This document shows positions 11,301-60,577 of a stretch of 64,000 bases of DNA, one piece after another; the stretch's first letter is position 1, and every line of letters begins with the position of its first letter. The notes under the pieces are model-generated. The model did not search any database, was not told the DNA's origin, and saw only the letters and a list, made by a program, of their open reading frames with translations. The stretch comes from Morinoia aosen (lineage: Eukaryota; Arthropoda; Malacostraca; Amphipoda; Talitridae). A program made the translations under genes and the position numbers. The stretch lies in the NCBI GenBank assembly GCA_030386875.1, contig CM059563.1:18739936-18803935 (forward strand). Reading direction: 5' to 3'.

Positions 11301-11318
11301 CCAATAAATTTGTTATAT

Positions 11319-13108: not shown

Positions 13109-13109
13109 T

Positions 13110-16697: not shown

Positions 16698-16905
16698 AAT
16701 AAGTTAGTTTCAGCCTCCCTTACCACTGTGACAAAAACCAGCAATCGTATTATATCATCGTTACCAAGATGGGACTTGGCCATACTTCATGGTCAGGCGA
16801 TGGAGTGAAAAAATTAGAGTTGGTTTAAAAATGGTAAATGGTTCAAGAGAAGTAAAGATGAAATACTTAAGTTCTAGGAATGTCAACTCAAGACCTTGAA
16901 GTGAT
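16698..16905 (+). repeat. RepA fragment, strongly diverged
   Basis: The first 25 bases (AAGTTAGTTTCAGCCTCCCT, TACCAC) match the family well. The remainder only loosely resembles it. Confidence 0.5.
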
Positions 16906-16909
16906 TCGT

Positions 16910-27684: not shown

Positions 27685-27705
27685 TCTTTAGGGGTATTTA
27701 CGAGT

Positions 27706-33070: not shown

Positions 33071-34181
33071 TTCCCACCCGTATTGCTCATGTGAGCGGTT
33101 GTTAATCAGGAACCTGTACTGCGTTAGTTCAGACAATGTCAACGTCGTGGAAATATGCACTCGTGCCCGTTTGTCATACCACCTTACACCTTACCTCTTT
33201 ACTTTTAAAGACTTCCTTTCTTTCTCTTTGAAACCGGAAGCTAGGACGCTCGATCCCGTCAAATTGAAAAAAATGTGAATACATAAGAAGAGAAGAAATA
33301 TAATTTAGAATAGCTAAAAGACCGTATCAATCTAATTATTCAACAGTTTATCCCAATTTCATAATAATGTGAAACATAAGTTAGTTATTTAGCAAGAAAT
33401 TCAAGAAAAATTGAGAAAATAAAACGTTGTAAACGATAATTTAGTTTAAAATACAGGGCAGGAACACAGAATTTCCGAACATGAATACCGGACTCTAAAA
33501 TGCACAACGAATTTTTAAAACCTCCACAAAAGTAAAAGAAGAAACAAATGAACTGGGGAACTATATTCAAGGATGCAATTATTGAAGAAATTTCATCACC
33601 GTCAATAAAACAGCGATGCTTCAAGTAGAAGTAGACGCATTTGCCATTTCTAAATTTCTCTGCTCCAGACCGTTTGGCACAGCTTCACTAAGCAAGATTT
33701 AGCCCTTCTTCAACGAGTTTAAATTATAGGATTATGGATCGATAATCACCAACTACATACCATCGCTATTCAAAGCGTTGGCCTTGATATTATACACAAT
33801 CAAGTGATGAAGTCCGACACTGATGAGTGTTGGCAAAATGAAAGTTAAAATAGCTCACGAGTACTGAAAGATGTCGTAAGCAATACGAGGCTCGTCTGAG
33901 CTTGTAATGGGACGCTAAGATAAGTAGAAAATATGTTCAATAAATATAAACAAACACTAAATGATACAACTTTTGGAAGAATGTGGGAGTCAAACATACC
34001 CTCCCTTAATGTACGAATACAACGACATCACAGCAGCAACTCTTAGAATGTTGGTTCAATACGCAGCAAGAACGTGACGGCGGCTCAAGTTCTGGCAAGC
34101 ACGGGGGCCTAGCGAAGAGATGTCAGTTTGGTATCTAGGTTGCCAGCTTGAGACGGTCTGATGAACGCTGACGGAGCCACC
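33070..34181 (-). other. Probable 3' UTR and downstream flank of the NPAT-like gene
   Basis: This follows the TAA of the last exon. I see no AATAAA or ATTAAA on the minus strand within the first kilobase. The nearest AATAAA on that strand is around 32100, inside or beyond the satellite array. The 3' end is therefore not placed. The stretch has no coding signal. Confidence 0.35.
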
Positions 34182-34262
34182 TTACTTCTTCCTCGTCTTG
34201 CGTCGGAACATTTCAATGAACTTGATCATCTCCGCTTCCGTTTTCTTGGGAAGAATAATATT
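34182..34262 (-). CDS. Exon O: last coding exon
   Basis: 81 bp. The acceptor is GTCCCTCCAG. It encodes NIILPKKTEAEMIKFIEMF and then RRKTRKK and TAA at 34184-34182. An amphipathic helix with a very basic tail ends the protein. Human NPAT also ends with a short conserved helix (…DVEKFLASL…), so the AEMIKFIEMF helix may be equivalent. That is a guess by position and pattern only. Confidence 0.78.
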   Translation of the reverse strand, partial: NIILPKKTEAEMIKFIEMFRRKTRKK

Positions 34263-37200
34263 CTGGAGGGACATAAAGCACAATGTCAGGGTATGTAATA
34301 ACTAGATGCCTAGTTGAAAATAACTATTCTACACGGATGAACCAACACTTTTTTACGTCCCCAAATTAAAAGCCCTAGCAATTTTTGCACGAGTTTTCTA
34401 ATTACTAACCTCCATAATATATTTCGAAAACAAGTACTGCTAATTCAAACAAAAAGGGTAAAAGTACTAAATTTACACATTAGGGCTGTAAAGCTCAATA
34501 TCGCAATTGTGGGCAACTTTCTGAAAGACATAACATTTTTTAAATAAAGCATTTTCATAGATTACCAGCCTTCAAACTTATTCAAACCAAATTCAGCATG
34601 AATCATTTGATGTGCTCATGACACTCCTTTTGAATAGCTTTAAATGAAATATACATTCGATTACTTTCATCAACAGCAACCTTCATGCATTTCTGGGGTA
34701 CCTAAAAGCTAAATAAAAAATTTGAGAAAGACACTAGAATCCAAATTAAAAACACTCGAAGTTTTATGTGCTTAACACCTCAAACACGACATTAGATACG
34801 ATATGAGTGTAATTTTCAAATATGAAGTACTACGAACCTTATTGGAGATAATAGGTGCAGGCGTGGGAGAAGATACATCTGAGGGAGGCAGCATGGCAGA
34901 GAGAGCAGAACTGTTAGTGCTTTGGTCGCACGTAAAATTTTCCTTTTCAGCAGCAGACTCTGCCTGCTGTCCTCCAACCCTTTCTTGGCGATCACAAGGT
35001 CTTTCTTTCCTCGCCCTCGAGTGTGCATCACTCAAACTCGGATCCCCCGCAACGTCACTTGTCTCCAAGTCAGAGCGTTTACTTGCAGAAGCTGAATGCG
35101 TCCTACACCCACCAGAGAGCTCATCAAGCACTTCCCTGTCCCTTTCTTGTCCTCCACTCCGTGATCCACTCACTGATTTCTTCTCCGAGCGAGGCATGTT
35201 CTCACTCATCTCGGAGTCCATGAGGGTTCTTTCATCGGCGCCAAGATTTCTGTCCTCGGCGCCAAGAAGAGTTCTGTCCTCGGCGCCAAGAAGGGTTCTG
35301 TCTTCCACGTCATCAGGGTACACGCCAGCCCCCGGAGTTTTAGGCGGGCGCTCCAAGTACGAGCAAGACTCTGTGTACGAGTCTATGGAGAGACTAGGGA
35401 CCGAGTGAGAGGAAGACTTGGGTACTTGCGTCCCCAACAGTGGAGTTGATGTGTAGGGGTTTACCCTTGTTCTGTGGTGAGAAGAGTCTTTGGCTGACTT
35501 TCTGGGTTTGGACGGCGAATAGAAAATATACTTGCCTGGAGTGGGGGGAGCTTGTGGGAAGTATGAATCATCGCGGGAAGAGACCTGAACGAGAGGATTG
35601 GTACATTGAAGCACGTAAGACGTAAAGAGAACACCACTAGGCCAATTTTTTAAGCATAAAATACGTAAGAACAATTTCAAGACACAAAAACAGAGTTTGC
35701 TGATAGGAATGTGCGAATCCCCAGCAAAAAAAAAAAAACGGCTTTCAGTTACTGATGGAAATCTGAGGAAATTTTTTTCAAATAGCTATAACTATAACAT
35801 TTAATATATTCTCTGAACATTGCCACGCATAGTTAGCAGATGATTAACAGAAATTCTAGAATAAAAGAACGAGAACCCAAGGAGCTTCATCCCAATGTAA
35901 ATTACGCCGCGTCGCGTGCGTGCCTGAACGTGTCGGCGAAGCTTGGCATTATTTTGCCAACTTTAAACCATCACGGAGAGGTACTACGAAAACCTGTGAC
36001 AGAGCAAGCAGTTTATGAGTTGAATCGTTCAAAAGTAGATGAGGCTTCAACTGAGCAACAGTTTGGTTATCAATGAATGGTAAAACCATAATAGCACTTG
36101 GACCTCAAAATGATGAGATACGTATTAGACGCTAAGGAACTGAGAAATCTTTCCTCCTCTTAGCAATAAAATATTCATACCAAAATAATTACCACCTAAC
36201 CTGCAATAGAAAATATCTGCGGATATTTTATTGTACAAATATCTTGCCTCTCATAACAGTAAGATTACTTGTGAGAAACATTTATACTTGAAGTAAACCT
36301 TGAGCCAAGGGAAGTGCACAGCTACGAGTGGGGAAATCTCTTCCCCGACAAACCCACAGTGTCGACAATAATTTAGTATTTTAACACGTTTGCTACGTTT
36401 CCCCGGTTGTTAACGGTTGGTTTGGTAAGGTTGTAAGTAGCAAAATTGGGAAACCGACTCGGCTGCTTGAATGTACTTTTATCCTTCCTAAGAAAAATGA
36501 AGAATGTAATAGCATGATAACTTTACAAGTCGTATGATAACAGTTATTTCCTAAAAAAGTCACGAAACAGATGACATGCCATACACTTATACCGGTACTT
36601 GAATGAGCAATTTACCCAGTGGTACACATTGCTCCCAATACGTAGGAAACGTGTTAATCCATTGACTGCAATTGAGTACACTAAAGCTCAACATTCAACT
36701 CAAATTTAAAGTCAATATTGTTAAGAAATTTTGAAAATAGCAGACATGAACTGGATCGTGCCTTTATTAAGCTTTAGTTACATACTTACGAAAATTGAGT
36801 TTGTGACTACTAAAAGTCAACAACATTATGAAAATCCCCTCCGTGGCCACCGGTAGCACACGTTGCAGTCAAAGTATTGAACAAACACTCACCGTTCCTC
36901 GTCTTCCGGCTGGGGAGCGTCGAACATCAGAATTTCGTGAGCAATTGGAGGTTGTCTCAGCCGTGACAGACGATGGGTGCCTCTCTTGGGACTTGTTAGA
37001 GCTGCTCGACCGAGATCGCTTCGACTTGTTACCCTTCTTTTTCTTCTTTGTTTCAGAATCAAAAGACTCAGGGGTTGCTGGATCGCTAGAGATGGCAGAT
37101 GCTAAAGTTGCTGTGTCGTTAGATAAAACTACCGTTGGAGCATCGGTAGTTTTTGGGATACTGAGGATATTTGAGCGCCTGCGATTTCTACGTGAGTCGA

Positions 37201-40200
37201 TTGAGGTATCAGAGAATTTTTCCTCCGCCTCTGAATTTCTAGACTCGTTAAACAATTTTCTTGTAGTTTCAGGAATGTTTGATGCACCCAAAGACTTATT
37301 GGCAGTCAAAGTGATGTCAGATGCACTCAAAGCCTTTCTAGATTTCAAAACATCAGATGTTCTCTGTAACATCGGATCGTCATCAAGTTTGGAAGACATT
37401 GAAGACGTTTTAAAGTTTCCGGCAACAGTCGTGGAATTCAAGTGTTCATTTGCAGTATCTTGAATATTGGATGCACTCGATGACTTCTTGCGGCCCGCAT
37501 TCGTTGACCTACTTGGGTGCTTCACTTCAATGCTCTTCTCCTTTTTACCTTGTATGTCATAGTCTGCCTTTGAAGCAACTCCAGAACCAAAATCTAGATT
37601 TTTTGTGACACACTGCAGGTTTTGCGCAAACTTCTTACCAGCCGCAGGATGTCTCGCTCGATTGTGGGTACTGGACAGAGGAAGCGTCTGATTTGGAACA
37701 TCCAAAGGTAAAGCTTCATTATAAGCAACACTGCAACTTCTTGCATCGTCTCTAGCACTTGGTAAATCTGAGCGAATGTCACTTGAATGTCTAGGTGCAG
37801 CAGCAATCCGACGCATCTTCTGACAATTTGAATCTGATTCAGTCTTCCCTACATTCAAAGTCATACCTTGATGAGAGGTGTCCTCTTCAGAAGCATTCTC
37901 AACTTCCCTATTCTTTGAAGTTTGACAAGCCTGAGACCAAGCAGGAAAAAGACTGGCATTTTTGTTCCCATGACCAGGACGGTTGACGTCTCTTACGGGA
38001 CAGGTTCCGATGTTGCTGGTCCGAGACCTTATCGTTCTGCGGGTTGAACCACTTGAGGCAGTTGGCGCGGGCCAATCAGGTGAATCAACAATATGCAACT
38101 GGTCTGGACTAGAACTAGCTGTAGAATATTCGCTTCCACCCACATCATGTTTGCGCCAGAACTCGACAGCAGGATTCAAGTCAACTTTTGAAAGTGACTT
38201 GGACTTTGAGCGCAAGCTAGAATTGGTGCGTGAGTCGGGCTTATCAGGAATAGGTTCAGATACAGAGAGAGGAATTGGTGCTGATCTGTCTTGCAGTCCG
38301 TGAGGAGCTTCACTTATGTTGCTTCTCTCTTCAGCTTGTACTATTTTAAAAACTGGATAGACTTCAGGGCTGTACGGCGTGAGTGAGACTGGTAAATTTC
38401 CAACTCCTGAACTACTAGATTTCGAAGTAGTTTTAGCAAATGAACCAGGTCTGTTTCGATTGGAATCTATGCTGTCTGCCCTGGAGGTACTTGATGCTTT
38501 TTCATCTAAGCATGCAAAATCCGGCACTGGAAGTGAAATAGAGTGCTCATCATCTGGCCTGCTTGAATTACTTCGAGTAGGATCTGAAGTAGACTGTTTC
38601 TTTTGTTTTGCAATACGTGGATCGATTGGAACTGAACTTAATGCACTATCAGTCGAGTCTCTAGAAGTTACTCTTGAGTCTGACACGCTAAAATTAACCG
38701 GAACACCTTCTGACGCTGTTGATTTTAAAAAAGAGGTAGTGAGAGATTGACTAGGCATCTGTTGCGCAGAGTTTGCAGTTATTGCTATACTTTCGGTAGT
38801 CACAGATGAGCAAGACATAGGATATGAGTTGGACTTTGGAGAAGAATGATCTGATTTAGCAACATAAGCGTTTGTGTGAGATCCTAAGTGAGGGCTAGGG
38901 GCACCTGAGGGTGTTGATGGAGTCGAATGACCACTTTCTAAATTCAATTCAAAAAGGGAGATGAAATCAGAAGAAGATAAACATAGGTTAATTTCGACCT
39001 CTTCATCAGATGAGTCCTCAAAGTTTGATTCCAAGGCGTTGGGATCTGTTTCCATAGGACTCAAGTTCTCAGAAATCAAGTCACCTCGATCGGACTTATT
39101 GGAGTCGTATTGGGGGTCGAGGAAAGCAGAACTTGTGGCTGGGTTCACAGATGCTTCAAAATCGCGCTGAGACGTCGGCACGGCTACCATTGCTCGCGGT
39201 CCTTCTCGAACCATTGAGCTGCAGATGCTCCTCATTTCTTTCTCAGGAGTAGGAGGCAACGGAGTGAACGATGCAAGTTGTTTTCCAACAGAACTTTTTG
39301 GGAGCGTCAGGCGCGCGTCTTGAGTAGGTTGACTCTTTTTAGAAGAATTTGCTCCTCTTTGAGGAGAAGCATCATTCGAAGCAGACACTCTTCCCTGCGA
39401 ATCAACTGTAGCAGCCTCGGAATCAAGATCAAACCGTTTTTCTGAATCTTGTGTTTTGCAGTGAAAGTCCACATCCTTTTTGTGTAGAGGAACCGAGTCT
39501 TTGCTCGCCTCAGGTACGATATCACCTGCATCAGCAAGATCACCATCATTCGATGTACCACAAGCAGAAGTGGCAAGATGGCCTACACCAGGGGCAACAG
39601 AGGCGGGAACAACACTACCAACTGCGGCGGCAAAGGTCGCATTGGCAGGGCTGTTAGGATCAGAGTCAAGTCCTCCGTCGAGCATTGCAAGCTTGCTGTC
39701 CAGATCTGCATAGGAGTCGTTCAGGTCGCCACCGTCTGCCTGCTCTGAGAGCGCTCCGCTGCCGCTGTATGCAGGCGTACAAACTCTCGAGGCCTTACTG
39801 CTTGATAACTCCGTATCTGTAACATTCAAAATCAGAGTCAAATAAAATGAACTATGTGTTGTAACTCTATCAGTAGCATTCAAAATCATGTTCAAATAAA
39901 GTGAATATTGTATTTTATTCAAATTTTCTCTCACGTTCCAGTCAGCAGTCATATGAGACAGTAAAGAATTTACTTTGAAAGATTATAAACTTTTTGTAAA
40001 AGAATCCAAAATCTTATAGTAACGCAAATAATTTTTTATTTGATCTTAAACACTTATCCTGAATATGCGTTAGACTTATTAAATATTTTCTCAACATCAG
40101 AGCACGAAAATTGACATTTAATTTTAAATCTTATCCTACTGATCCAACCAAGAGCTGCATGTACTGCAACAACCTTAAGATTGGTTTTATTTTAAACTAG

Positions 40201-43200
40201 AACATAAGGAAATAGAACGTAAGGAAAGCTAATCAGAATATAGTAAACTTTACCAAAAAAATGTAACAAAGCTTTATGAATTTAAGCTGAAATTAGCCAC
40301 ATTTAAATAACCCTCAGGCCTCTGTTTACTGAGCAGTCCCCCATCCAAACGAAGCCAGAGACCAAAGTAAACAGCAGCTAGTAGAGTGAAATTTGAATAT
40401 ACAGACATGCTACAGAACACTTTTAACATGTTCGCTGCCGCTGGACGCACATGTAAGTCCAGCGGTCTCATGTTAAGTTAGGTTGTGAGTAGCTAAGTTT
40501 AAAAAACTACTTTATTATTCAAAAACAAAAATTGTATTTTTCAGAATGTGAAAATATAATAGCATGATGATATTTTATCCTGTAGGCTTAAATCTTTTCT
40601 AATAAAGATGTTGAAATAATTTAAATGCTGTTCACTTACACCGATATGTAAATGAGCAATTTACCAAGTGGTTGGTCGGCAGTTTACGTGTCAACGAAAT
40701 GAACATCCAAAAAGTGAGCACCATATGAACCTTGAGCCAAGTTCGAAACTGCAGTAAATTTCCCTTTGATGAAAAAAATCCACACGCGACCTAGAAGGTA
40801 CAATAGAGATGTCAGGCTCGACAGATGATGATTGATTAGGCAATGCTTAAAAATACGTAATGTGAAAATTTACACCACCCCACTGCATTTCAATATATTA
40901 GTATATATCTATAAAACGAAAATCAATCATGAAGCTAGGCATACAAGTAACTAGATGTTATGTCCTAGCAGGTACAAGCTAACTAACTCAATGTAATGAG
41001 ATCATCATATGCTAAAGAATTGAAAGATGGCTTCCAGCAACACTATGAACCTTTACCTTTCATGAGGTTAATAGAAACTTACAGACACTCACCATAGATA
41101 ACAGGAGAAGCAAAGCCCTGCAGTGCTCGTTGCAGGCGTTGCACTTCTAAAGACTGTACTGCGTCGGGCCCTTCCATTTGAGGCTCAGCAACATTCGTAT
41201 CATTTGGCCCTAATGATGCCTGTGTCATGTTATCGGGAAGGCCCACTGCAGTAGTAGAGAGCCTCCTCTTGCAAGATAAAGTATCAGGGTTTGGAATTTG
41301 AGATGCAGAACTTCCAGCACGGCTGGTGGGTGAGGATGACAACCCTTGTCTCTCACTGTGAGCTAAATTATCAGATTCATGATTGACATCTTCCTTTTCA
41401 GCATTGCGGCCCCGTGATGAAGGCTGCTCATGGCTCTTGCTGCCAAGAGACTTCATAATATCTCGATTACAAGACTTGGTTTCCTGAGTGACTTCTTGTA
41501 ATGATGTTGGGCCCATTGATCCAGAAGTTCCATCATCTCCAGTGGCGTTTGCGGACGCGCAACGTGCCTCGGCTATATCTCTAGGTGAGTCCTTCGAACA
41601 GCCAATTTGGGCAAGCTGATCATTATTAGAACGATCTCCTTTGTGTTGTTCTTCCGCATCAGAGTGGTTATCTACAAATGACATGTCAGCATCGCCATGT
41701 GACAGTACGGTAGTCCACTTCTCCCAAACGTCAGCAGGAGATGGGGGAACATCTGCAATATTACCTAGGGGCGACTGCGGAAATTGGCTCTTCTTTGCAG
41801 AGCTTGAAGGAGTGTTGAGAAGTCGAGAGCGAGTTGAAGCCAAAGAAGTTGATCCAAGTCGGCCTGAAACTGAAGGAGTAGATCCTTGACGACCTGAAGC
41901 CGAAGGAGTAGATCCAAGTCGGCCCAAAGCCGAAGGAGTAGATTCATGACGACTTGAAGCTGAAGGGGTAGATCTAAGACTTTTCCTAGATGATCCTTTA
42001 GGGGTGTTAGGAAATTCCTCACTACAAGATCCAAATTTGACCGGAGACAGCTTACCAGCACCGACCACACATTTGTCAAGATTGTTTTCTGTCGTGCATT
42101 TCGATGCACCTAACTTTTCCTCACTTTTAGCTGAAGATTGCAAATCATTGGTTACTACATCGTGAGCAACTGGCTTTTCTTTCAAATGCGCCTGAGTATT
42201 CAACTCTTCAACTAGTGAATCCTCCTCACTTTCAGATTCAATTCTAAGTTTCCGAGATGGCTTTTTGGAGGAAGGCTTCATTTTCTTTTTCAGAGTAATC
42301 ACTTTACATTCCCTGCCAGCTGATTTTCTAGATTGTTTAACTTTACCCTTAGCGCCAGTTTTTTGTACAAATGGACGTTCTTTGCAGTTTTTCTTTTTAG
42401 GGACACGAGTTTTTGAGTCAGACGTAGATTTTGAAAACGAGACGGAGGTTTCTCGAATGTTGTTCAATGGGATATTTTCTTCTTCAACAAATACTGGCAC
42501 CTCATCACAAGGACGACTTTCAGTCTGCTGTTTGAAGCCTGAGTGGCTAGTGACCTCAGGTTTTGCTGTATCTGAAGGCTTTAAAGGAGAAATTCTAGCA
42601 AGTGAATTAACATTTCTAGGTAATTCTGCGTTGTCAATTTCTTCATGCTCCGAGTTGCCTGAATTAGAAACAGATGTTAATTTGTTTGCTGCAGACGCAG
42701 TTTTTTTACCTGGAAATTCAGGTGAGTTAGAAGAATCTGAGATATCAAATATTGAAAATTGAGATGACTGTGCTGACTTGGACACTTCTTTGTTAGACGT
42801 TTTCTGGCTAACAGAAATACGAGATATGCTTTTTCCAGTCATAGTCACAGGGTTGACTTCAGCATCTTTCTCTTGCTGACCATCACCAACAGTTGTTACG
42901 TCACCAACAGGCTTAGAAGTTTCACCAACACCTTGAGGAGCCCGGAGCCTTTCTTCAACTTGATCACTTTCAGGCCTACGAGAACAGTCTTCGTTTACTT
43001 GCTCCGATATGAACTCATTTTGCTGCTGATTTTTGGACTCCTCTTGCTTTTGGATGTGAATCTTACCACTTTGTGGGCTTTCCGACTTTGAACGCTTATT
43101 CTTCTTTTTACTCGACTTCTTCCGTTGAGTGTTTTTCATTTTCTTTTTGCGCTTTGTTTCTGTAATTGAAAATTGTTCATTTTCGATGCTCATCACCAAG

Positions 43201-49200: not shown

Positions 49201-52200
49201 GTTTGGTGCAACTGCTTGGTTTTGGCCACAAGTAGTAGGTTCCACTGGGTTTTGGTCAAGTTCTATGTGGTTTTTAGCAGACGTAGGTCCCGAATGATTT
49301 TGGTTATCAGCAGTTTTCATGTGCTCTTGCTCACAAGTAGGTTCCATATGCTCCTGGTCGAGCGGACCCCGTTCTGATAAACTTGTGTTGTGGCTGAAAT
49401 ACAAAGTGCCTACTTTAGAAGAGCAGCAACGAGTACCTGATATTTGAGGCCTAGAGCAAGAGTAAAATTTGTGACAGTCTAAGGAACTTTGCCTTGCCTT
49501 AAGCTAATGCAATATCAAAATTAATACTATATTGTTACATTAGAGCAAGACTCCCAAGCCACAACGAAAGTGATCTCAAGAGAGAGAAGATACAGTTTCA
49601 GGGTCTCACGGGACTGTTCAGTAGAGACTGCAGAAAACGCGGAATCTTTGCACATAGAAACAGGAAGGTTTGAAAGAAGAGGAATAAAACACAAAGTAAA
49701 GATGGCAAAGAAAGCATAAAAACTAAAAGAAGTGAAGTGGGCACAAAAGATGGAAGTCCCAAAGACCATCTGCAGCCGAGTTAACTTTAACAGTATCGCC
49801 TGGCGGCGTCATTCCCCATGGTATATAATGGATCTAACTAGCCTAAACCAATGGACTATTTTACAGGGTACTAGGCACTTTGTTGAAAAAATTTTAACAT
49901 AAGGTTGAGAACATTAAAGTCAATACTTTTACTCAAAAATTCAACGTTAAAGAGTTACAAAGACTCAAAATTTTCATACGGTTTCCTGAGTGTTCCATTA
50001 AACCTAAGATTAAAATTTGTTTACACTGAACATTTCATTGGCTGTGAAAATAATGTCAATGAAGCGAGTATTCAATGCTGAAGTAGCACATATGCACCTA
50101 GCTTACAGCGCAGCAAATAGGAATTCTTGGGAGGCTGCCTGAATTTATGCAGCAAGATATCCTAACAAAAATATTTTTAATTTATTCAGCGAAGTAACTA
50201 AAAAATCTGTTCTGAATTTTTACAGAAGATAGCTTTAAAAATGTTTTGAATTTATGCAGTAAGGCAGCTGAAAAAAATGTTCTGAATTTATGCAGCAAGA
50301 TTCCCTAACAGAAATGTTGCATTAAAGCCATGACAATAGCAGTTGTTGTAGCGTCATCTCAAGAAAAACGCAAATAGAAAAACGTACTAAATCACCAATG
50401 CTGTTAGACATTAAAAAGCCACGCACACCTTGGAAAAAAAAACGCTGCTGGTTCTACGTTGGCAAGAAGCATTCATCTGAACAGGCAGCTCCTCTGGTAA
50501 TAACAGAAAATGAAGTAATCTGGTAGAAAAAGTTACAAGGAAAACTCTTCTGCTCAATGATCTTATACTTTCATTCCCTTTACGCTAAAAGCTGAGAAAC
50601 CAGAATAGCAGCAAAAACGATTGTGAAATAGCAAGGAGTAGGGATATATAAAAAAAAGTATTGATTGTACGGTGATCATTGAAAATAGTCGTACCTGGCC
50701 GTCGCCGAAGATCCTCGATCATCATCAAAATTGTTTTGGAAGTTTTCATTATCTGATATATGACTGCTTTGAGGGTCAGAACCTGGAAGAAAAAGATAAA
50801 TACAATGAAGAGGACAACTAGAGAATTACAGAATAAGAGGAATTGAAACTAATCAAAATGCCTACTTTTCAATCGAATATAAATGGTCGTCAAATAATGA
50901 AAAATTTTCAGCCAATGTGTAACAAATCCTAGAACCACATTTGCTACAAATTATGGCCACAAAGTTGCAAAAAGAGTGTTGCAGTCTACTTGTTCTAAGT
51001 AAAATATGACTTGTTCGAGAGGGTATAAAAATTTTAACAGCCTCATGAATACACTAACTACAGCAACATTAACAATGGAAATTATGAAAAACATACTTAT
51101 ACCGCACCAAAAACGTGCACATGTTTAACCAATCTACGCTAAAACTGAAGCACAACAGATTCTTAGAACTTAAGTAGGAGGCAAAATTTGACCTTGGGGT
51201 AAAATTATTTGGAAGGCGGTTGCACGAGTTGTACCTGCGCAATTTACAAATAAAACGGCTACTGCGCATAAACTCATGCCCTGAGAACACGAGCTGTTAC
51301 CGAACAGTGGGGTGCTGCTGATAAAAGAAGTACTAGTACATACACGAGTTAGTTAGAGGCTTTGCTCAAACTAGAAGATATATGCAGAGAGGAAAAAGCA
51401 AGGAATCATTAAGTACGGACCAAGGAAAACGAGGACTTTATGCACAAAACAAAAACCCAACTTGAATATCAAGTCAAAAAAAAACATAAAGGTTAACCAG
51501 TTTCAGTCATTTGCGAGGAAAAAGTCACAAAGCCATGTTCAAATATATGGATAAAACCTGCCGTTATTCGAGGTCAAAATTCAGTTGGCTTCATTTTGAC
51601 CCCACCGTGCATCCACGCGTTAAACCCTCAGTAAACACCCCACCTTGGCGGCCGTCGGAGTGAGGGCGAGGAGGAGTGTGGAAAACGTTCCCAAGTTCCT
51701 GGCCCGACTGGGTGACTTCAGCCATGTCAGTGTAGCTGCAGTGAGGTTCAGGAGTCGACAGCAACCTCGCTGCAGCTGCCTCACCACCATCCCCACTGGG
51801 GTTGTAAGCCCTGCATGGCTGGGATGAGTGGCTTTGAGCCCCACAAGGGAGTAGACTAGATGAAGGTTGGACAGCAGCTGCGTCTCTCGAGTTGGAGTTT
51901 TCGTTAGCTGTAAGATAATGCAGAATTAGTAGGTAACATCTAATGTATTGAGAGCAAAATTAAAAATAAAAGTTTTATTTTCCTTAAAGAACACTAAAGG
52001 CCTGTTTACACGATCATCGAGTGCGCACGTGAGCAGTGAAGAGAGGCGCAAGTCTCGCCCGCCCGCTTTATTCTGCTTCAGGCTCATTTACTGCTCAATG
52101 ACAATGCATACCATGCTTGTTTTCATGGCGGTGGCAAGAGCTTGTCAGTATCATTACAGCCACACTGTCTTCAGCAAGTAAATGCTCCAGAAGCAAAAAC

Positions 52201-55200
52201 AAGTGGGCGGGGCTTGCGTCCCTCATCACTGTTCAAGCGTGTACTCAATGATCGTGTAAACAGGCCTTTATGTACGACTTTTCATTCAATAAAAAGTAAT
52301 TAACTATACTACAGGGAATTTTTTTCAATTGAAAGAGAACAAAATGAATAAAAAATGTAGCCAAATATAGCTCACAGGAAACGTCATCTAAGTGCTAAGC
52401 CGTATCCTGCCACTCACGGATGCCTAAGAAGAACAGCTCATGGTAGTAGGGATCATCCATGATCATTTTGCTGACTGTTTCCGCTATGTTAGAAGTAAGG
52501 GCAGACGAAGAAGCATTCACAGCACCCTCCACCTTGCCATTCAGGTCCACCACATCCGAGGCAGAAGCTGTCTCACTCGGAGCAGTTTTTTGGCACTCCG
52601 CAGCAGAGGCATTCGTATCAGTGATGCGTCTACTGCTGGACGCTTCTGAAGATTTTTCAGTCTCGTCCTCCCCCACCACTGTATAGCCTTGCTCAGCCAG
52701 GGTCTTGTTGATGGCAGCAGCGAAATGCTCATGGAAGGCAGTGTTGCGCAGGATGCTCGCTGTTAATTGCTCGTGATACTGAAATGGGAGTAATGGCTTG
52801 TGTGTTAGAAATAGAAGCTAACAGGGCCAGTACGAGAGGGATTATTTCACCTGAATATAAATGTGAAAACAAATCTTTGTACTATATGGTTTTAGGTGAA
52901 CTAAAAAAGGAAAATCACTAAGAACATACTATACCGTACTTACTAAAGAATTAACAACTGTACCCACAAAAACTGGTAAAATTTTTTCAACCAGTTTATT
53001 CAAACTGTAATTGAGAACTGAATTTCATCCTTGCCAAGCTTTCAACCAAACCAGTTTTTTGAAGTTTTTTGTAAATAGTTACTCTCCGAAAGTATATGCT
53101 ACCTCACTTGAAATTCTGTAGCTGAAGAAAGGTTTCTCACAAGGTTTTTCTAGTAATTCACACTGAATATCTCACATTTACAAATAACGAGCACAATATT
53201 TACGACTGTGAAGTGTCAGTGAATTGACTCAAAGGAACATTGTTAACCAAAATAATGAATAATATTTTAATCTATTTTGTGACGCAATCTCAGGGATACA
53301 AGTGTTAAACCCACAATTATTTTCAGATCAATTTACTGTGTAGTGAGTTCTTGTAATTTTGACATAAAACTCCACAAGTTTCGCAGGTCTCCTGCGTGGT
53401 TAAAACAACGCACACTAAATAATTAACCCCTACCATACCCAAGGGTAACATGTATAGCTCAGAATTAACTTCACTTACCTCTTGTACCGTAGTGATCTCA
53501 TCAGTTGGAGGTCTTCTTCTCACACGAAAACTGAAAAGTAGGAGACATTATCAAGAAGCGCGCTATTGAAACACAAACCAAGTTGTTGGTTTCTCATACA
53601 AAAATCTTCTATTGCTCACAAATTAAACGCCTAAACACGCATACAAACATTTTTTAGTTAAAAAAAAGTGAACTACTCAACAGGATAATTAATATATTGG
53701 CCAAAACACCAAGTTTTCATCACCATGATGAAAAGTAAATTATATATGTTTGAAAGCAGAATACAAAATGTGGTATATTGACTCTGCTACGATGCCCTTA
53801 TACACAATGCTGGACAAATGCCGCATAAAAATTTGCTGTGGTTTTCACAGAGAGAAATGAATGTCTCTCCAATACATTACACATATCAATTCAAGGATTG
53901 AAGGACTTGGCCTTAATATCATTGTGCAAAGCTTTCTGTTTCTAATTCACAACTTTAATTTAATTGCAAATAAATAACACACCAACTCTACTTTCACGGA
54001 AGACAAAGTAACTTCTACAACCAAAGTTTTCTTATCTGCACCTAGAAACAGTTACTGTGACCTCTGCAAGAAATAATACAGCAGAGATAGAATTTTAATT
54101 CGTCCCAACACTCTAGTTGAAAGAAGTTTATAGAAGCTAAAGGTTACAGAAGAAAGTAATAGATGCTGAAAAAACTGGAACAAACCGAAACGAAAAATGA
54201 AGATGGTCCGTAAAAAACAAAAACCTATTCAACATACCTAATTCAAAAACCAATTAACTATTCTAATTTGTCAACAAAATGATGGTCTACATAACATTCA
54301 GCAAAAGACGTCACATCTTTCCACTGCAGAAACTAATTCCTGCAGATACACTAGATGCCTCTTCCTGAGGGCGGAAATAATACGTCAAAGAAAGACTAAT
54401 TTGAAGAATGACTTCTTTACTAAAAGTAAAATCCACATTGATGTGATTCTATTTGAAAGTTTCAATGGTAAGAGAACGTTTTAAAAGATGCAGCACTCGA
54501 ACTTACTCTTTTCTTTTGGGGGAGAGACGCTCTTTTGTGGGCGTCTTCTGGGGCGTACTGGGGACATCAGGTGGCAGCACTTGGTCATCGTATCCATCTA
54601 CAGACAAAATATAACAAAATCTAATGTAATAAAGAAATATGTCTATGCAACATTAGATTATATTAGTTTAAGCCTCCCTAACTGCTAAAAATAAGAGCAC
54701 TTCAAAGAGAGGAAGGAAGAAGACACCATTAAGTATGGAGATAAGAGAATGTAGAATCTATGCAGAAGGAGCATATAAAAAGTAAGTTGAGAAAAAAGTT
54801 CATGAAACATGATAAAAGTTGCATAAGAAAGTCATAGGTTCTGGAAAACAGGACAGCAGTGAACCGAAAAAAGGTGGTCCATAACATAAAAAAAACTTTT
54901 ATTTCAACAAAAAAAAAGGCCTACCTAACTCTCAGCTCGGGCACTCACACATTTTTCTCATAGGATTGTTAATTTCCATAGATACAATAGTCGTAACCCC
55001 CTGAGGGGATATTTATATGCACAACATGCATGCCAGGAGTGGTAGATTTTACTAATATGGTTAAATGAATTAGCAAAATTTGTTGAGGATCATCACAACC
55101 TTGCAGATAATGGAGCAACAGATCAAAACAGGCAGCTCTGACATAGATTTTGCAAGTATATCTAATCAAGAAGCTAAAGTATAGGTAAAGAAGCTGACGA

Positions 55201-58200
55201 ATCACCACCATTGACTCATTGGATGAGTCAATTAAATAAGAAGTAGGCTACTGAAAAGAAGGATTTGTCAGAATCATATTATCTTTCATTATACATCTGA
55301 GAAGATCTGTGCTAAACATACAAGGGAAATTTGTATTCTTTTTGAAACTTAGTGTGTTCAGGTAACTTATTATTTACCCAATGCCAGGTTAGCAAGTCTC
55401 CATCAAGACACCATCTCATCGTCTATCTTATTAAGGGAAGAAAACTCCCAGAAAATCGAATTTTCTTAAGATATTGGGTTTTAGCTGCCATAGGAAGGGT
55501 AAGATGTTAGGTACATCCTGTGAAAAATGAAGTTCGTACGTTCATTGATTCGCCCCCAATGGGGGTTTGAAGTATGGGGGGGGGGGGGAAAGTGATTTTT
55601 TTCTCATGATACACCTCCCCCCTTGGCACTTTCTTCACGGCTTGACGCTGCTATGTCATCTTCTATGTCTCTTCATCACTGTATAATGATTTCAAGGGTC
55701 CTAGCTGACCCATCCAAAAATAATTTCAAAAAAATTGCGATTGTTAATGTTTCTTTGTTTACCTTATTTTGGAGGATCGGAATGTGGGGCTTCAAAATAT
55801 AGCTCCTCCTACAGTTTTTGAGCTACAGTAATGATTTTGGAACCAAAAGAACCGAAATTTAATCCTCTACAAGATGACGCCGGGTTTCATTCATTTTCGG
55901 AATAGAAATTAGCTACATTTCTTTTGTGGGGAAAAGTGTGAAAATGGGTTCAATTTTTGTATTTTTCATTTTTTCCAAAAAGTATTTCGAAAATTCAAAA
56001 AAATTTATGCTACGTTGTATAGAATACAATTCTGCTTCTTTTGATACCAATATTATCTCTTTATCTCAAAATCTGATTGAGTCATGGGAGTTTCCGCAGA
56101 CCCATTTTTCCGTTTTCTTTGAATAACTTGTTTTCTATGGGGAAAATGTAAAAAACACATAAGTCCAATCTTAATCCTTGTTCAATTTTACAAACCTATA
56201 CCAAGTTTCATGAAGATCGGTCGAATAGTATAGGACTTTTAAAAATGGGAGTATTCTCCCCTTAATGCCTTTTCTTTCTTTGCTGGAGGACTTATTCTAT
56301 TCTTTACAGATCAAATGTAAGATTTACTATGGAAGTTAATTAATAGCCAAATACTGTGTAACTCCATCACATAGCTGCTAGATATTTGATCATAGTGTAA
56401 CAGTAATGGGAAACGCGTTTTTTGAACCCTCATAGGTAGAACTAGCACCGATAAACCTCAGGCAGCCAAGGAGAGGCTGTCACAAGTGTGACATAACATT
56501 ATTATTATTATTATTATATAGGACGTTTCACCACTGAAGGTGCTACGAAGGCGTTTCATCGGTGACTTCGGTATTTCCTAGTTCGTCATTTCTGTACATA
56601 AAGCAAATATCACTCCTATCATCGCCGAGTGGCGGCTGTGACATAACACCTTTAAAGGATACTCTCATATGGTAGAAACTTGCTCATCTTTGCTGGTAAA
56701 AATTTACAGAAACTGCCTCTTTAACCCGTCTCCACATGGTCGACCTACCAAGAGGTTTGATGAAAATGGGTCAACTGTGCAACTTACTGCACATTCACTA
56801 ATCATGTTAGAAGTTTCATTGGGGGTTCATTGTAAAGAGAGAGAGTTGCTCTTTCTGTCAGTGGGGAAAAAAATACTGCTACCCCAATGAAAATCTACGA
56901 AATTCGAGTTCTTATTTCGGTAAAATACAAAAAACAGAAACCAGAAAATCACTGGCCATTTTTTATTTATTGCACTTTTATGTTTTTTTATGATGCATTT
57001 TCATAGATTCTAAGTTGCTGAATCTTGTGGTATGTGAATTTTTTTTCAGGTCCAATAGTTCCGGAGTTATGTGCACTATATGTAAAACACAGTTTTTATT
57101 TTTTAGTTCATTTTGTGTATAGGCTGTTATCAAGCAGTTTCATTGCTTGTAAAGAGTTTGATATGCATAGAGCTTTTCCTCCCGAATACAATGGTGGTAT
57201 TATTTTTTGCCTAGGAGTAAATCTGTGGATTTGGACTCCCATTTTTGGAACAAAAAACATTAGAAAATAAAAATGATGGCGACCTTCTTAGAGGCAGAGT
57301 GTGTGCTGGTATGCCTCAGCTACACTGCTGGCCTTCTAAGAGGTTGTGCAGCGCCGGTAGCTACACCCCAGACTGAGCAGAAGAATTCATACAGATTTGA
57401 GCTTGTTACCTCTCCTTCCCTGTTCCCCCCACCTAATTTTACCTTACACCAATGAATAGCGCTCAACGAGACGCTTAAGACCATATATGGCAACCCTAGG
57501 TTTGCTGATGTGAAACATGTGCTAGCTTTGCCGACCTTCTAAGAGTCCAGGACGTGGCGACGGGTTAAAAAAAAATTACACAAAATCAAACTTACCACCC
57601 TTGCAGCAGAACCACGTCATTGAGGTATCTGAATGTTCCCTCATCATTAGGAGCTCTTATAACTTGATATTTTTTATGCAATAGGTTCATTATTTATTTT
57701 TACAAAGGCTAATCTAGTGTTCCACTCAGTTAAGTGATTAGGACAGAAAAACTCAGTGAAGTACAAGTGGCATCAATTGGATGTACAACTTTGGTGTCTC
57801 AATTGACACAACACTGACAAAAGAGGGTGTGAGCATCCCATGAGACAGAAGAAGTAAAGACATTACAAAGCCAACACTTAGGCAGGAGTTCAGTTGCATG
57901 GAATGCCTGCCTCTCCCCATGAAAGAAAAGCTTAAAATGAAAGATAACACCAAACTAGTCCATCAAAATATACAGCACATTATTTCTTACAATGAGAGTT
58001 CCTGCCTTAAAAAAAAAGAGCAACAGGGATTATTCTGATTATAATTGATTCTGAACATGAACTTGTGATCACTCACCAACTGCATCAACTGGAGGCTCAG
58101 CACTGGGAGTATTAGAAGGGCAGGGTAAAGCTTCCTTCAGCTTTGCTTTTTTGTAGAGTAATTTTTCTCCAAAACCAGACTGCTTCCGTTTCCTCTGTTG

Positions 58201-60577
58201 AGCACACACCTGCCAACAAGTGATGATCATTCCTCAGAAATATTTTGCTCACAGAGCCGGAACTGCTGAAAGAGCCTTTGTCATGAAAGCCATTTTTGTA
58301 AGAATCAAATAAATGGCAAGTGTAAATGGTTAACATTTTCGAAATAATTTTCTTTTGTGAGAAATTGGCTAGTAAATCAATTGAATCTAGCTGCTGTAAA
58401 ACTTACTTGAATTGTTAACGCCTATTCCTACAGAGTTATTTATTCCTAAATATTAATTTAGAAACCACCATTTACCTTTGCGGACTTTAGAATTGAAAAA
58501 ATAAAAGGGGAACAGAATCTTGAGTTACACTGTACAGAGTATTAGCCTACATCACACGAAACATCACATCCATGCCTGCACTTATTCAGCATAACATTAA
58601 AGACTTGTCTTGTGTTCATTTCACCCAGTCAAAAAACTAAGACTTGTCTCTTCTTGCACACATCCCACACAATAATGGAGACATGTCTAACTTTGCACTC
58701 ATCTCATAAAATGAAGAAGACATCTCTTACTTTGTAGTCACTCCACACAATAAAAAAGAAACATTCATTGGTATGCTTGTTCTCATCCAGCACACCAATA
58801 AAACTCATCTAACCTTGGCCATTGTCCTGCTGGTGGTGATGGATGACACAAGACATCTGAGCTGCTCACTGAGCAGGCAGCTCTCCAGCAGGTGTGCCAA
58901 TAAGTGAGGATGCTCTACAGCAGCACTTCTGACTGCGAACAAAATTCTCTTCTTAATTCATCATTCAATTATCATAGAAGACAATCATTCATTGAATTCA
59001 ATAAGTTAGTTCAAGCCTCCCTAATTACAACAAAGAAATTTCTAAGGTAGGAATGAGGGCAACATCTATTAGGAAATTAAGGAAACAGGGAATCTATGCA
59101 CACACACAGTATCCACAAAAAGTAGAGAGCGCTCTCAATTGAATTCAGTGCTAAATAGTGCTGCGAACTTTTGGCATTTCTTTGCTGCTGTCAGGCATCT
59201 GATTATTATTTTACATGTGGCAACTCAGCTAGCTATTTAACAGTGCTGGCAGCTTTCATTATCCCACCTAAGGTCTCTTTGAGCTCTTTTAGAGAGTAGT
59301 TGTGTTATTTTTGGCTCCAGTCTCTTACCCTCATTTTTGTTGTTTTGATTTGTTGTGCTTCAGTTTTAGAAGATATTCATCCTAATGGCTCCTATTAAAC
59401 TTAGTGGCAAGGAAAAAGCTCATATTTTGGCCTGGAAGACTGATAATGTGTCAATAAAAGAAATTTTGAGATGTACAGGGCAAGATGAAAGCAGCATTGA
59501 CGTTTGGTCACTATACCTCATGCCTCCCACCCAACGTTGTACCACATCAAAAACCTGTCAATGAAAGGCCTCTAAGTCTACTGACAACATCCTACAATGT
59601 GTATCGCTCAAGAAACCACAGGTTACAGCAGGTGAACTCAAAAGATCTTTCTAAGCCTTTCAGGGACAGGTTTTTGAGGTGGTATAACATTGGGCGGGAG
59701 GCCACATGCTGTTGTAACCAGACTTTCAAATGGTGCTTTCACCTTGCCCTGCACGTCTTGAAATTGTTTATGTTGACACATTATCAGTCTTAAAGGTCAA
59801 AAGGCAAGCGTTTTCTTGCCACTAAGGTTAGTAGGAGCCATTAAGATGAATGTCTCCAAGTACTGCAATGCAACAAAGCAGAAGAACAGAAATAGGGGTA
59901 GGAGACTGAAGTGAAAAATAACACAACTACTTTCCAAAAGACTTTGAAGAACCCTGAGATGGGAAAATGCAAGCTAACTGAGCTGCCAGATAGCTAGCTG
60001 AGTTGCCAAACATAAAATAATAATGAACAGATGGTTGACAGCAGCGGGAAATGCAGGAAGTTCACAGTGCCTTTATCATTGATTGTAATTGGGAGCACTC
60101 TATACTTTTGCAGAGGGAAAGAAGTTTATGAAACCAGATATAAGGGAAAGGAATAATAGCAATGAAAAATTGGACAGTAGTGAACAAAAATTGATGATCT
60201 ATATTGAATAAATTTCTAAAAAGGTTATTTAAAAAAAAATGTAGCTAAACATTAGCTTGGAACCTAAACTTCCAGAGAAACAGTTAAATGTGTCGTGTTT
60301 GAAGCCATACCTTGTAATTCTGCATTTTACAGTCAAGTAAATTTTCCCTAAACATGCATCAAAAAACATCCAAACAATTTTACCATGACGTACATAGAAC
60401 ACTTACTTAGTTCTCTTGAGTATGCATAATCAAGCAGCGCCTCCTGCAAGGAAAGCTGCCAGACCTTTGATTGCACCTTGCGGCCCTGCTTTCTCAGCTG
60501 GAAAATTTCAGCTAATTCAGGAAGCTCCTCAAGAAACTTCTCCACCGTCTGCTTGCACCCCCGGCTTTCAAGATAGC
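34182..60577 (-). CDS. NPAT/Mxc-like giant LisH protein, 15 exons, 5' end outside window
   Basis: Whole-gene entry. Coding exons in transcription order: 60577-60407, 58932-58814, 58209-58077, 54597-54507, 53530-53479, 52778-52418, 51907-51644, 50782-50695, 49393-48186, 47546-47505, 46406-46362, 45313-41093, 39816-36893, 35584-34838, 34262-34182. Every intron is GT-AG and all 14 junctions keep frame, giving about 10.5 kb of coding sequence (over 3,500 residues). The first exon has a LisH-like helix pair. From memory of the family, its GYL start and the later LSLQEALLDYA segment line up with the N-terminus of vertebrate NPAT. NPAT and fly Mxc are nuclear scaffolds of the histone locus body and CDK2 targets. 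Many TP/SP sites, basic stretches and disorder fit that role. The protein is about twice the length of known NPAT/Mxc, which lowers confidence. Gene structure is well supported; identity is an inference from weak similarity. Confidence 0.62.
34838..35584 (-). CDS. Exon N: penultimate coding exon
   Basis: 249 codons. The acceptor is TCGTTCAG and the donor is ATAAG|GTTCGT. It begins VSSRDDSYFPQAPPTPGKYI and then FYSPSKPRKSAK, with clustered TP/SP sites. A short repeat, EDRTLLGA, occurs in two exact and two decayed copies around 35230-35300. It ends SSPTPAPIISNK. A longer minus-strand frame that continues past both splice sites is intron read-through. Confidence 0.8.
36381..36657. mobile_element. 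277 bp piggyBac-type MITE (TTAA ends), copy 1
   Basis: The termini are TTAACACGTTTGCTACGTTT and, inverted, TTAACACGTTTCCTACG, so TTAA stands at both borders as in piggyBac-type insertions. It lies in the intron between exons N and M. Internally it contains TGAATGAGCAATTTACCCAG, shared with the copy at 40423. Confidence 0.82.
36640..36870 (-). repeat. Dispersed repeat, inverted copy of 2945-3185
   Basis: It contains TGACTGCAATTGAGT, TCAACTCAAATTTAAAGTCA, GAGTTTGTGACTACT and GAAAATCCCCTCCGTGGCCA. It abuts the piggyBac-type MITE that ends at 36657 and stops 23 bp before the exon M donor. Confidence 0.75.
36893..39816 (-). CDS. Exon M: 2.9 kb disordered exon
   Basis: 974 codons. The acceptor is AATGTTACAG and the donor is AACG|GTGAGT. 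It is Ser/Thr/Asp-rich throughout. Notable text: GDLNDSYADLDSKLAMLDGG near the start, ASFTPLPPTPEKEMRS, an acidic block SSDEEVEINLCL, LPVSLTPYSPEVYPVFK, and a basic tract KKKKKGNKSKRSRSSSSNK close to the end. It has no catalytic domain. It ends VRRSPAGRRGT. The open frame runs upstream of the acceptor into the intron, but the acceptor and phase fix the start at 39816. Confidence 0.82.
40423..40694. mobile_element. Same TTAA MITE family, copy 2
   Basis: It begins TTAACATGTTCGCTGCCGCT and ends ACGTGTCAA, where the right TTAA has decayed to TCAA. It shares GGTTGTGAGTAGC and AATGAGCAATTTACCAAGTGG with copy 1. The left end also holds a small hairpin, CCGCTGGAC … GTCCAGCGG. It lies in the intron between exons M and L. 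Confidence 0.75.
41093..45313 (-). CDS. Exon L: 4.2 kb exon, nuclear, repeat-bearing
   Basis: About 1,406 codons. The donor is TATG|GTGAGT. Two acceptors are usable in phase: CAG before 45313, or CAG before 45334, which adds seven residues. It starts near EIRQPMTVTLPNLVAIKYG, then has KKSKRK, and then ten copies of a ten-residue acidic repeat (44671-44970). Further on are RGRRKRRRL and KRRRSH basic patches, EFRTPVKSPGK, DALNTPYK, a Lys-rich block (KRKKKMKNTQRKKSSKKKNK) and a Ser-rich ten-residue repeat near 41850-41970. The many TP/SP sites next to Lys/Arg suit a CDK substrate. It ends ALQGFASPVIYG. Confidence 0.85.
41845..41975 (-). repeat. In-frame 30 bp Ser-rich repeat in exon L
   Basis: About four units of ten residues, of the form GRxGSTPSxS (GRLGSTPSAS, GRQGSTPSVS, GRLGSTSLAS), with decayed units either side. 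Each unit supplies a Ser-Thr-Pro site preceded by a basic residue. Confidence 0.85.
44671..44970 (-). repeat. In-frame 30 bp minisatellite, 10 units, inside exon L
   Basis: Ten consecutive 30 bp units start at 44671, 44701, 44731 and so on every 30 bases to 44941. Several central units are identical on reading. Each encodes the ten residues DLQGENEDLP, with variants PD, SD, DFQEE and RT. Because 30 is divisible by three, copy number can change without a frameshift, so this should be polymorphic. The repeat is strongly acidic. Confidence 0.95.
45669..46029. mobile_element. 361 bp Tigger/pogo-type MITE
   Basis: The left end is CAATGGTCCTTCGTTTATCG and the right end, inverted, is CAGTGTTCCCTCGCTACTTT; both continue GCGGTT. 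This is the CAGTGGTCCCTCG…GCGGTT terminus typical of pogo/Tigger elements. A TA precedes the left end; on the right it is TT, probably mutated. It lies in the intron between exons K and L and has no coding capacity. Confidence 0.75.
46362..46406 (-). CDS. Exon K: 45 bp microexon
   Basis: The acceptor is TTTATTTCAG and the donor is TGCA|GTGAGT. It encodes GSAEVKVIIPKSMDC. Like exon J it is phase 1 at both ends and therefore skippable in frame. Its VKVIIPK text has a regular hydrophobic pattern unlike the disordered flanks. Confidence 0.68.
47505..47546 (-). CDS. Exon J: 42 bp microexon
   Basis: The acceptor is GTATTTCAG and the donor is TGTG|GTAAGT. It encodes GMLAVLEYPPPDGCG when joined in phase. 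It is supported by good splice signals and by phase 1 at both ends. A 42 bp cassette in the same phase as its neighbours could be skipped without a frameshift. Confidence 0.68.
48186..49393 (-). CDS. Exon I: 1.2 kb disordered exon with internal repeats
   Basis: 402 codons. The acceptor is TATTTCAG and the donor is CCAG|GTATGG. The sequence is rich in Asn, His, Ser, Thr and Pro. It contains degenerate repeats: LHHNYMQANIT / QLNYMQANNIQ, EQEHMEPT / EQEHMKTAD, and a ~30-residue unit around GDSATSRDG that occurs twice with a looser third copy. It has no enzymatic motif. It is probably a flexible scaffold segment and ends with KSVSPPG, another SP site. Confidence 0.8.
49545..49795 (+). repeat. RepA dispersed repeat, intronic, diverged
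   Basis: It contains AGCCACAACGAAAGTGATCT, AGAGAGAGAAGATAC, and GCGGAATCTTTGCACATAGA, matching the family order. It lies in the intron between exons I and H. Confidence 0.6.
50141..50315 (+). repeat. ~36 bp intronic minisatellite, five units
   Basis: The recurring unit is GAATTTATGCAGCAAGAT(…)CTAACAGAAATGTT with AT-rich variation, located in the intron between exons I and H. Confidence 0.8.
50695..50782 (-). CDS. Exon H: acidic short exon
   Basis: 88 bp. The acceptor is TTCTTCCAG and the donor is CCAG|GTACGA. It reads SDPQSSHISDNENFQNNFDD and then DRGSSATA, acidic and Asn-rich. It ends in phase 2 and its AG joins the leading C of exon I to make Ser. Confidence 0.72.
51644..51907 (-). CDS. 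Exon G: low-complexity exon
   Basis: 264 bp. The acceptor is CTTACAG and the donor is CAAG|GTGGGG, which is a weak donor. The open frame begins PNENSNSRDAAAVQPSSS and ends TPPRPHSDGRQG. It is Ser/Pro/Ala-rich with no recognisable fold. The frame is fixed by the phase-1 ends of exons F and G; a longer-looking ORF in another frame is spurious. Confidence 0.7.
51997..52268. mobile_element. 272 bp MITE with ~70 bp inverted repeats
   Basis: The ends are AAGGCCTGTTTACACGATCA and the same sequence inverted at 52249-52268, flanked by TA on both sides (51995-51996 and 52269-52270). The inverted repeats extend imperfectly for about 70 bp. It lies in the intron between exons G and F. The superfamily is uncertain: a GGCCTGTTTACACG terminus suggests PIF/Harbinger, but the duplication looks like TA. 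Confidence 0.85.
52418..52778 (-). CDS. Exon F: conserved-looking helical domain
   Basis: 361 bp. The acceptor is CATTTCAG and the donor is ATCC|GTGAGT. It opens with YHEQLTASILRNTAFHEHFA, then a Ser-rich linker, and closes with IAETVSKMIMDDPYYHELFF. These two helices look like paired motifs of the kind 'residue run, (D/N)xxFxExF', and they are the least disordered part outside the LisH region. If this is NPAT, they would correspond to the conserved segment after the LisH domain. I cannot confirm that without an alignment. Confidence 0.8.
53479..53530 (-). CDS. Exon E: short basic exon
   Basis: 52 bp. The acceptor is CTTTTCAG and the donor is GAG|GTAAGT. It encodes FRVRRRPPTDEITTVQE after completing an Asp codon from exon D. 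The RVRRRPP patch extends the basic region. It ends in phase 0. Confidence 0.75.
54085..54380 (+). repeat. RepA-related fragment
   Basis: The middle and end sections are recognisable: GAAGTTTATAGAAG, AAACTGGAACAAACCGAAAC, CATCTTTCCACTGCAGAAAC and CTTCCTGAGGG. The start is missing or too diverged. Confidence 0.5.
54507..54597 (-). CDS. Exon D: TP-rich linker with basic end
   Basis: 91 bp. The acceptor is TCTGTAG and the donor is AAGA|GTAAGT. It reads DGYDDQVLPPDVPSTPQKTP and then TKERLSPKRK. Three TP/SP sites next to Lys/Arg match the proline-directed (CDK) consensus. A 3.5 kb intron separates it from exon C. Confidence 0.78.
54655..55015 (+). repeat. RepA dispersed repeat, full length, intronic
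   Basis: It contains TTAGTTTAAGCCTCCCTAAC, AGAGAGGAAGGAAGAAG, AAGTATGGAGATAAGAGAAT, GCATATAAAAAGTAAGTTGA and GATACAATAGTCGTAACCCC. It shows the uninterrupted AAAAAGTAAGTT site that the Tc1-like element hit in another copy. Confidence 0.85.
55576..55588 (+). repeat. G13 homopolymer
   Basis: Thirteen consecutive G in the intron between exons D and C, next to CCCCCAATGGGGG at about 55553-55565. The length could be an assembly or sequencing artefact. Confidence 0.85.
56499..56517 (+). repeat. (TTA)n microsatellite
   Basis: Six TTA units after GTGACATAACA. It could be the tail of an unrecognised retroelement whose body lies to the left, but no reverse transcriptase remnant is visible. Confidence 0.6.
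58077..58209 (-). CDS. Exon C: basic segment
   Basis: 44 codons plus one base. The acceptor is TTGGCAG and the donor is GTTG|GTGAGT. It starts VCAQQRKRKQSGFGEKLLYK, a basic stretch that could serve as a nuclear localisation signal, and moves into a Pro-rich linker with an NTPS motif. Confidence 0.75.
58600..58770 (+). repeat. ~40 bp intronic tandem repeat, three to four units
   Basis: The recurring unit is AGACTTGTCTCTTCTTGCAC then ACATCCCACACAATAATGG, located just downstream (in gene sense) of exon B. Units are diverged. Confidence 0.7.
58814..58932 (-). CDS. Exon B: helical segment after LisH
   Basis: 39 residues. The acceptor is TTCGCAG and the donor is AAG|GTTAGA. The text includes AAVEHPHLLAHLLESCLLSE and then QLRCLVSSI, leucine-rich and probably helical. 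It continues the LisH domain and may be part of a self-association region. It ends exactly on a codon boundary. Confidence 0.75.
59123..60102 (+). mobile_element. Tc1/mariner-like fold-back element inserted in RepA
   Basis: TA dinucleotides flank the element (59123-59124 and 60101-60102). The ends read GAGAGCGCTCTCAATTGAAT and, inverted, GAGTGCTCCCAATTACAATC. The inverted repeats are unusually long, about 280-300 bp, and extend into the start of the transposase gene, so the initiator region occurs at 59384 (plus strand) and again inverted near 59845. The flanks are the two halves of a RepA copy broken at its AAAAAGTA. Confidence 0.85.
59384..59795 (+). pseudogene. Tc1-like transposase N-terminal fragment
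   Basis: It starts MAPIKLSGKEKAHILAWKTD and continues NVSIKEILRCTGQ. This is the helix-turn-helix start of a Tc1-type transposase (LSxEEKAxIL…SIxEIxRxTG). A second readable stretch in another frame contains VPHQKPVNERPLSLLTTSYN and LQQVNSKDLSKPF, matching the second DNA-binding helix region. The catalytic DDE domain is absent, removed by the internal deletion that left the element palindromic. Confidence 0.75.
60407..60577 (-). CDS. Exon A (first visible): LisH-like N-terminus
   Basis: 57 residues. The acceptor is a pyrimidine-rich tract ending in CAG at 60578-60580, and the donor is TAA|GTAAGT at 60407/60406. The exon begins with the last two bases of a codon, so at least one upstream exon with the ATG is missing. 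The text GYLESRGCKQTVEKFLEE followed by LPELAEIF is a LisH-type pattern (helix, Gly/Cys turn, amphipathic helix with Phe-Leu). In human NPAT the segment GYLQQENLISTCQTF occupies the same place just after a short first exon, as far as I recall. The second half, QLSLQEALLDYA, resembles NPAT's next helix. The exon ends in phase 1. Confidence 0.8.

Follow-up and report, generated by a model that had tools for sequence, protein, structure and literature searches.

The histone locus body is an intensively studied condensate that has NPAT/Mxc as its scaffold, and disordered scaffolds are often variable in length. Drosophila Mxc is 1,837 residues long, carries an N-terminal LisH at positions 6-38 and an AT-hook at 1523-1535, and self-associates via its LisH and SIF segments, as stated in PMC9153134. 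Human NPAT has 1,427 residues, and FLASH and YARP are bound by its C-terminal helix, AGMDVDKFLLSLHY (PMC7432317); a C-terminal fragment of the human protein binds its middle region (PMC11613458). In the fly, elongation at the histone genes is described as controlled by cyclin E/CDK2 (PMC11702538).

Our window, a stretch of 64,000 nucleotides from the amphipod Morinoia aosen, contains a candidate NPAT/Mxc gene of 15 coding exons on the minus strand, running from 60577 to 34182. Including a start exon that lies beyond the window, the whole frame comprises 16 coding exons, 10,734 coding bases and 3,577 residues, in keeping with the more than 3,500 residues claimed in the initial annotation. The best explanation, which we consider quite probable, is that this is a single-copy NPAT/Mxc orthologue with the family's type of working at histone genes. 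It would be an arthropod member of the family that has become long chiefly via two intronless middle exons. The unusual trait of the gene is its length, as gauged against two reference lengths only.

Length of the protein and its source

The protein is 1.95 times as long as Mxc and 2.5 times as long as human NPAT. The initial annotation had put it at about twice the family's usual size, which suits the fly protein well, with "usual" standing here for two species only. Its attribution of the size to two intronless blocks also stood: block 1 (exon 13, 41093-45376, 4,284 bases) and block 2 (exon 14, 36893-39816, 2,924 bases) together account for 7,208 of the 10,734 coding bases, or 67% of the frame.

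Tandem repeats within exons total about 716 of the 10,734 coding bases, too few for a recent burst of repeats to account for the growth. One of them, a 30-base repeat at 44666-44962 in block 1, runs for 9.9 copies in the coding frame and encodes ENEDLPDLQG units; another, with an 81-base unit, lies inside exon 10. Acidic repeats similar to the ENEDLPDLQG units occur elsewhere in the genome, for example on contig C13. An origin of the blocks by copying was considered and dropped: among the 47 of 128 candidates that were scored, nothing else in the genome matched block 2, and the other matches of block 1, at least 46 with 33 of 6,463 candidates scored, all fell at query positions 133-252, which is the 10-residue repeat. 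When five parts of the protein were compared with each other, no match appeared below E 0.4.

It may be that great length is usual for NPAT in this animal group, with no special expansion behind it, and we give this close to an even chance. Only two lengths (1,427 and 1,837) enter the comparison, and both the small share of repeats in the coding bases and the lack of a second block 2 among the scored candidates fit such a group-wide trait. Among the papers listed by a literature search, none dealt with NPAT length across arthropods.

Exon structure of the candidate gene

The initial annotation had called for an ATG exon, which we located by sequence. In 40 kb overlapping and extending the window end, we searched for an ATG frame of at most 30 codons with a final G, the donor GT[AG][AG]G and the needed phase. 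Of five candidates one fit, adding LLPSELARLVL. It lies at 64833-64767 in extended coordinates, outside the window and 767 bases past its end, and encodes MASENSDFFSYLLPSELARLVL|G; read by eye, an in-frame TAA stands upstream of it with no intervening ATG. The first in-window exon (exon 2, 60407-60577) starts within the Gly codon (G|GC) of GYLESRG, exactly the kind of border that the initial annotation had described, and the joined N terminus of start exon plus GYLESRG reads LLPSELARLVLGYL.

Exon 1 is supported by this search, by splice sites and phase and by the N-terminal alignment, and exon 2, which contains the second half of the LisH-like segment, by splice sites and phase, alignment and Pfam. 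Splice sites and phase define exons 3 (58814-58932), 4 (58077-58209), 5 (54507-54597) and 6 (53479-53530). They are joined by the codon signal in exons 7 (52418-52778), 8 (51644-51907), 9 (50695-50782), 10 (48186-49450, 1,265 bases), 13, 14 and 15 (34838-35584), with motif shuffles adding to the evidence for exons 7 and 15 and a repeat scan to that for exons 10 and 13. In exons 11 (47505-47546, 42 bases), 12 (46362-46406, 45 bases) and 16 (34182-34262, which includes the stop codon and gives the C terminus ...AEMIKFIEMFRRKTRKK), splice sites and phase are accompanied by a weak codon signal.

The in-phase joining of the 15 in-window exons at canonical splice sites, as first annotated, was borne out. 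All 15 introns have AG acceptors, GT donors and matching phases, each contains between 9 and 82 in-frame stops, and the sole stop of the joined frame is its last codon, at 34182. Scored with a rough self-made matrix, 13 of the 14 in-window donors exceeded 4, compared with only 8 of the 15 acceptors, the other 7 being low. Block 1 stays free of stops for 1,437 codons, much longer than chance would give, as 60 local shuffles reached 213 at most. When the codon score was taken in 100-codon steps, the chosen frame was best in 35 of 36 and uniformly so through both blocks; the exception was step 1-100, where its score of -2.0 was bettered by that of a frame containing 6 stops (-0.0). The exons of 171, 119 and 81 bases have a higher codon score in another frame but contain stops there, and in those of 42, 45, 52 and 67 bases the codon signal is indecisive. 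Downstream, 2,089 bases separate the stop codon from the first AATAAA, and the 3' end of the model is provisional. An exon candidate at 50519-50429 was rejected, as it would break phase with the exon at 49450 (read by eye).

From phase, frame and codon use, we infer that exons 1 to 16 probably form one transcript. Alternatively, the locus could hold two same-strand neighbours, a short NPAT of about 900 residues that spans exons 1-12 and a second gene consisting of exons 13-16, in which case NPAT would not be enlarged. The tiny exons 11 and 12 with their little codon signal would fit such a division, as would an unrecognisable C-terminal NPAT helix and the three alternative acceptors at the start of block 1 (45376, 45334 and 45313, all of which keep the phase by eye, with 45376 scoring below 4). 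However, the junction 46362/45376 is in phase, the exon 12 frame soon stops when read on, and the block 1 frame has no ATG ahead of MTVTLPN (the last two by eye). In addition, PKTPGAG in exon 15 bears a weak likeness to PRTPGSG in the provisional human NPAT sequence used here (66 of 2000 shuffles as good), and we regard two genes as unlikely.

The surroundings of the gene include a non-LTR retrotransposon just downstream on the minus strand, at 23983-29859, whose 1,234-codon frame contains endonuclease, reverse transcriptase and RNase H; a 717-codon frame ahead of it has no Pfam match and looks gag-like by eye. A 153-base tandem repeat (32330-33071, 4.8 copies, 95% match) lies between this element and the gene's 3' end. 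In vertebrates, ATM is the upstream neighbour of NPAT, and by eye no ATM-like upstream neighbour was found here among the frames of at least 95 codons in 40 kb.

Assignment to the NPAT/Mxc family

The start exon, by completing LLPSELARLVLGYL, strengthened the likeness to NPAT that the initial annotation had seen in the N-terminal LisH-like segment. The N terminus LLPSELARLVLGYLESRGCKQTVEKFLEE aligns gap-free to human NPAT with a score of 80, while the best of 300 shuffles reached 45; the human comparison sequence is a provisional one, not a database record, and the two have the N-terminal run LLPSxxARLVLGYL in common. Over the full length of the protein, no segment but the N terminus stood out against this sequence. 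A profile search of the N terminus, which the initial annotation had proposed, put LisH (PF08513) first among the Pfam families, with 14.5 bits for 60 residues and 16.0 for a trimmed piece of 34; these scores are below its cut-off of 21.6, and LisH_PAC1 was likewise under its own. Because of this sub-threshold LisH score, we call the segment, at about residues 12-45 here, "LisH-like", a term that Wei et al. 2003 reportedly use for NPAT in their title. Pfam scans of the exon frames and of the N and C termini brought no NPAT or LisH family over its cut-off, which illustrates how easily NPAT can be missed; at the two termini no Pfam family of any kind passed. An APC_r match in frame 48061-49503 (21.3 bits, cut-off 19.9) covers 15 residues only and was rejected as composition. 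Across the genome, the NPAT_C profile (PF15712) gave no match, and its control was equally empty. Neither the first 79 nor the last 51 residues had a PDB match under E 0.3.

We also compared motifs of the provisional human NPAT sequence with the protein at their expected places. The helix matched in exon 7 is supported, as only 13 of 2000 shuffles did equally well. No support was found for the VLCF motif (131 of 2000) or helix 2 (342 of 2000). The human FLASH/YARP-binding helix, whose partners are the SANT domains of FLASH and YARP/GON4L, was equalled against the C terminus by 1042 of 2000 shuffles, with one species' helix as the query. No paper containing the string PSDVARLVLGYL came up in a text search of the literature.

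The sequence composition of the protein was assessed by shuffling. The initial annotation had called both blocks rich in TP/SP sites, and this holds for block 1, with 31 SP/TP against 19.7 expected (a count reached by 7 of 2000 shuffles), and fails for block 2, with 16 against 17.3 and no enrichment; over the whole protein, 65 against 55.3 +/- 6.3 is not clearly raised. Full CDK sites, [ST]Px[KR], number 16 in the whole protein against 6.4 +/- 2.4 expected, the maximum of 1000 shuffles being 17, and the excess is clearest over residues 1-449, which have 4 where 0.55 are expected (4 of 2000 shuffles). Four sites are strongly basic, around residues 189, 1328, 1640-1663 and 3249. Serine makes up 14.9% of the protein and tryptophan 0.2%, a composition which suggests that its middle is likely disordered.

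A second NPAT copy was sought in the genome, and none was found. Its N terminus, the composition of the remaining protein and the lack of any other candidate lead us to accept the gene as a predicted NPAT/Mxc. That it belongs to another LisH family and resembles NPAT by chance seems very improbable: LisH and LisH_PAC1 scores under their cut-offs, a missing NPAT_C match (with its empty control) and GID8 as the only LisH protein by name among 14 weak PDB matches to the first 79 residues (E 0.32 and 0.54) would suit that reading, but the LLPSxxARLVLGYL run, the NPAT-like large size, the serine-rich composition, the CDK sites, the basic patches and an exon border within the same Gly codon as the initial annotation names for NPAT all speak against it.

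Proposed working and comparison with Mxc and human NPAT

If self-association, condensate formation, kinase control and action at histone genes are carried over from the NPAT family, as analogy suggests, then the protein would associate with itself by means of its LisH-like N-terminal part together with the segment behind it. The long, likely disordered middle would provide condensate cohesion and cyclin E/CDK2 sites, and the basic patches would serve nuclear import. The protein would then gather at replication-dependent histone clusters and permit their transcription in S phase. The middle region that a C-terminal fragment binds in human NPAT would be the part lengthened here.

We looked for such clusters in the genome (1.99 Gb, 29 contigs) by way of histone 3' stem-loops, scoring 75 of 298,150 first-look candidates. 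All of the resulting stem-loop candidates were below the Rfam gathering score, and 14 of 25 fell at 40.66-40.93 Mb on contig C4, 8 of 25 on C22 (five of them at 2.90-2.97 Mb) and one on C8, 17.6 Mb from the NPAT/Mxc gene. A gathering-level Rfam scan of three stem-loop places found nothing. Open frames on C4 and C22 were read by eye as core histones, namely H2A, H3 and H4 in locus L022 and all four in L023, while L024 has H4 and a broken H2B. With candidate clusters on these two contigs, the presumed targets would lie on chromosomes other than the gene's own. Inside the clusters, long frames at 2247-5063 of L022 and 6985-8241 of L024 appear by eye to be endonuclease parts of non-LTR retrotransposons, perhaps elements settling in histone repeats.

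Several other features of the genome were observed. It has 115 cuticle-domain matches, which mark it as an arthropod's; no odorant-binding-protein match was found, and the control of that search was empty too. Of 24 COX1-family matches, 14 lie at 55-72 Mb on C27. Most of these are open when read with the standard code, in contrast to the mitochondrial COX1 copies with their 8 TGA, which points to sequence of a bacterial cobiont or contaminant in that contig. The mitochondrial genome is on C28 at 1501-20000 (L016 and L017), in an order that looks rearranged by eye, with ND3 before COX1 and CYTB before ND6, and with a segment around 14.8-18.8 kb in repeated copies. Its gene order hints, as no more than a guess, at a non-insect animal and perhaps a crustacean. 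Mitochondrial-type COX1 copies are also found on C26 and C29.

Returning to the NPAT/Mxc orthologue, we suggest tentatively, with less than even confidence, that this lineage about doubled the disordered middle of its histone-locus-body scaffold, kept the N-terminal self-association module and perhaps remodelled the C-terminal partner-binding helix. If true, this would offer a natural test of whether condensate size or histone gene number scales with scaffold length, and an orthologue of about double length could help separate the effects of scaffold length from those of single motifs.

Compared with Mxc by published lengths and positions, the protein has its N-terminal LisH-like segment in the same place as the fly LisH, and both proteins have a long low-complexity middle. 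No counterpart of the Mxc AT-hook was found here: the protein lacks a GRP core and the nearest stretch is PRGRRKRRR at 1331. With the provisional human NPAT sequence it shares the N-terminal run LLPSxxARLVLGYL and the stretch in exon 7, and the full CDK sites and basic patches add to the likeness; the human C-terminal FLASH- and YARP-binding helix could not be recognised here, with only KF followed by hydrophobic residues in common. This is a gene of a known kind, and its long middle part, which makes it about twice the size of the fly protein, is its one unusual trait.
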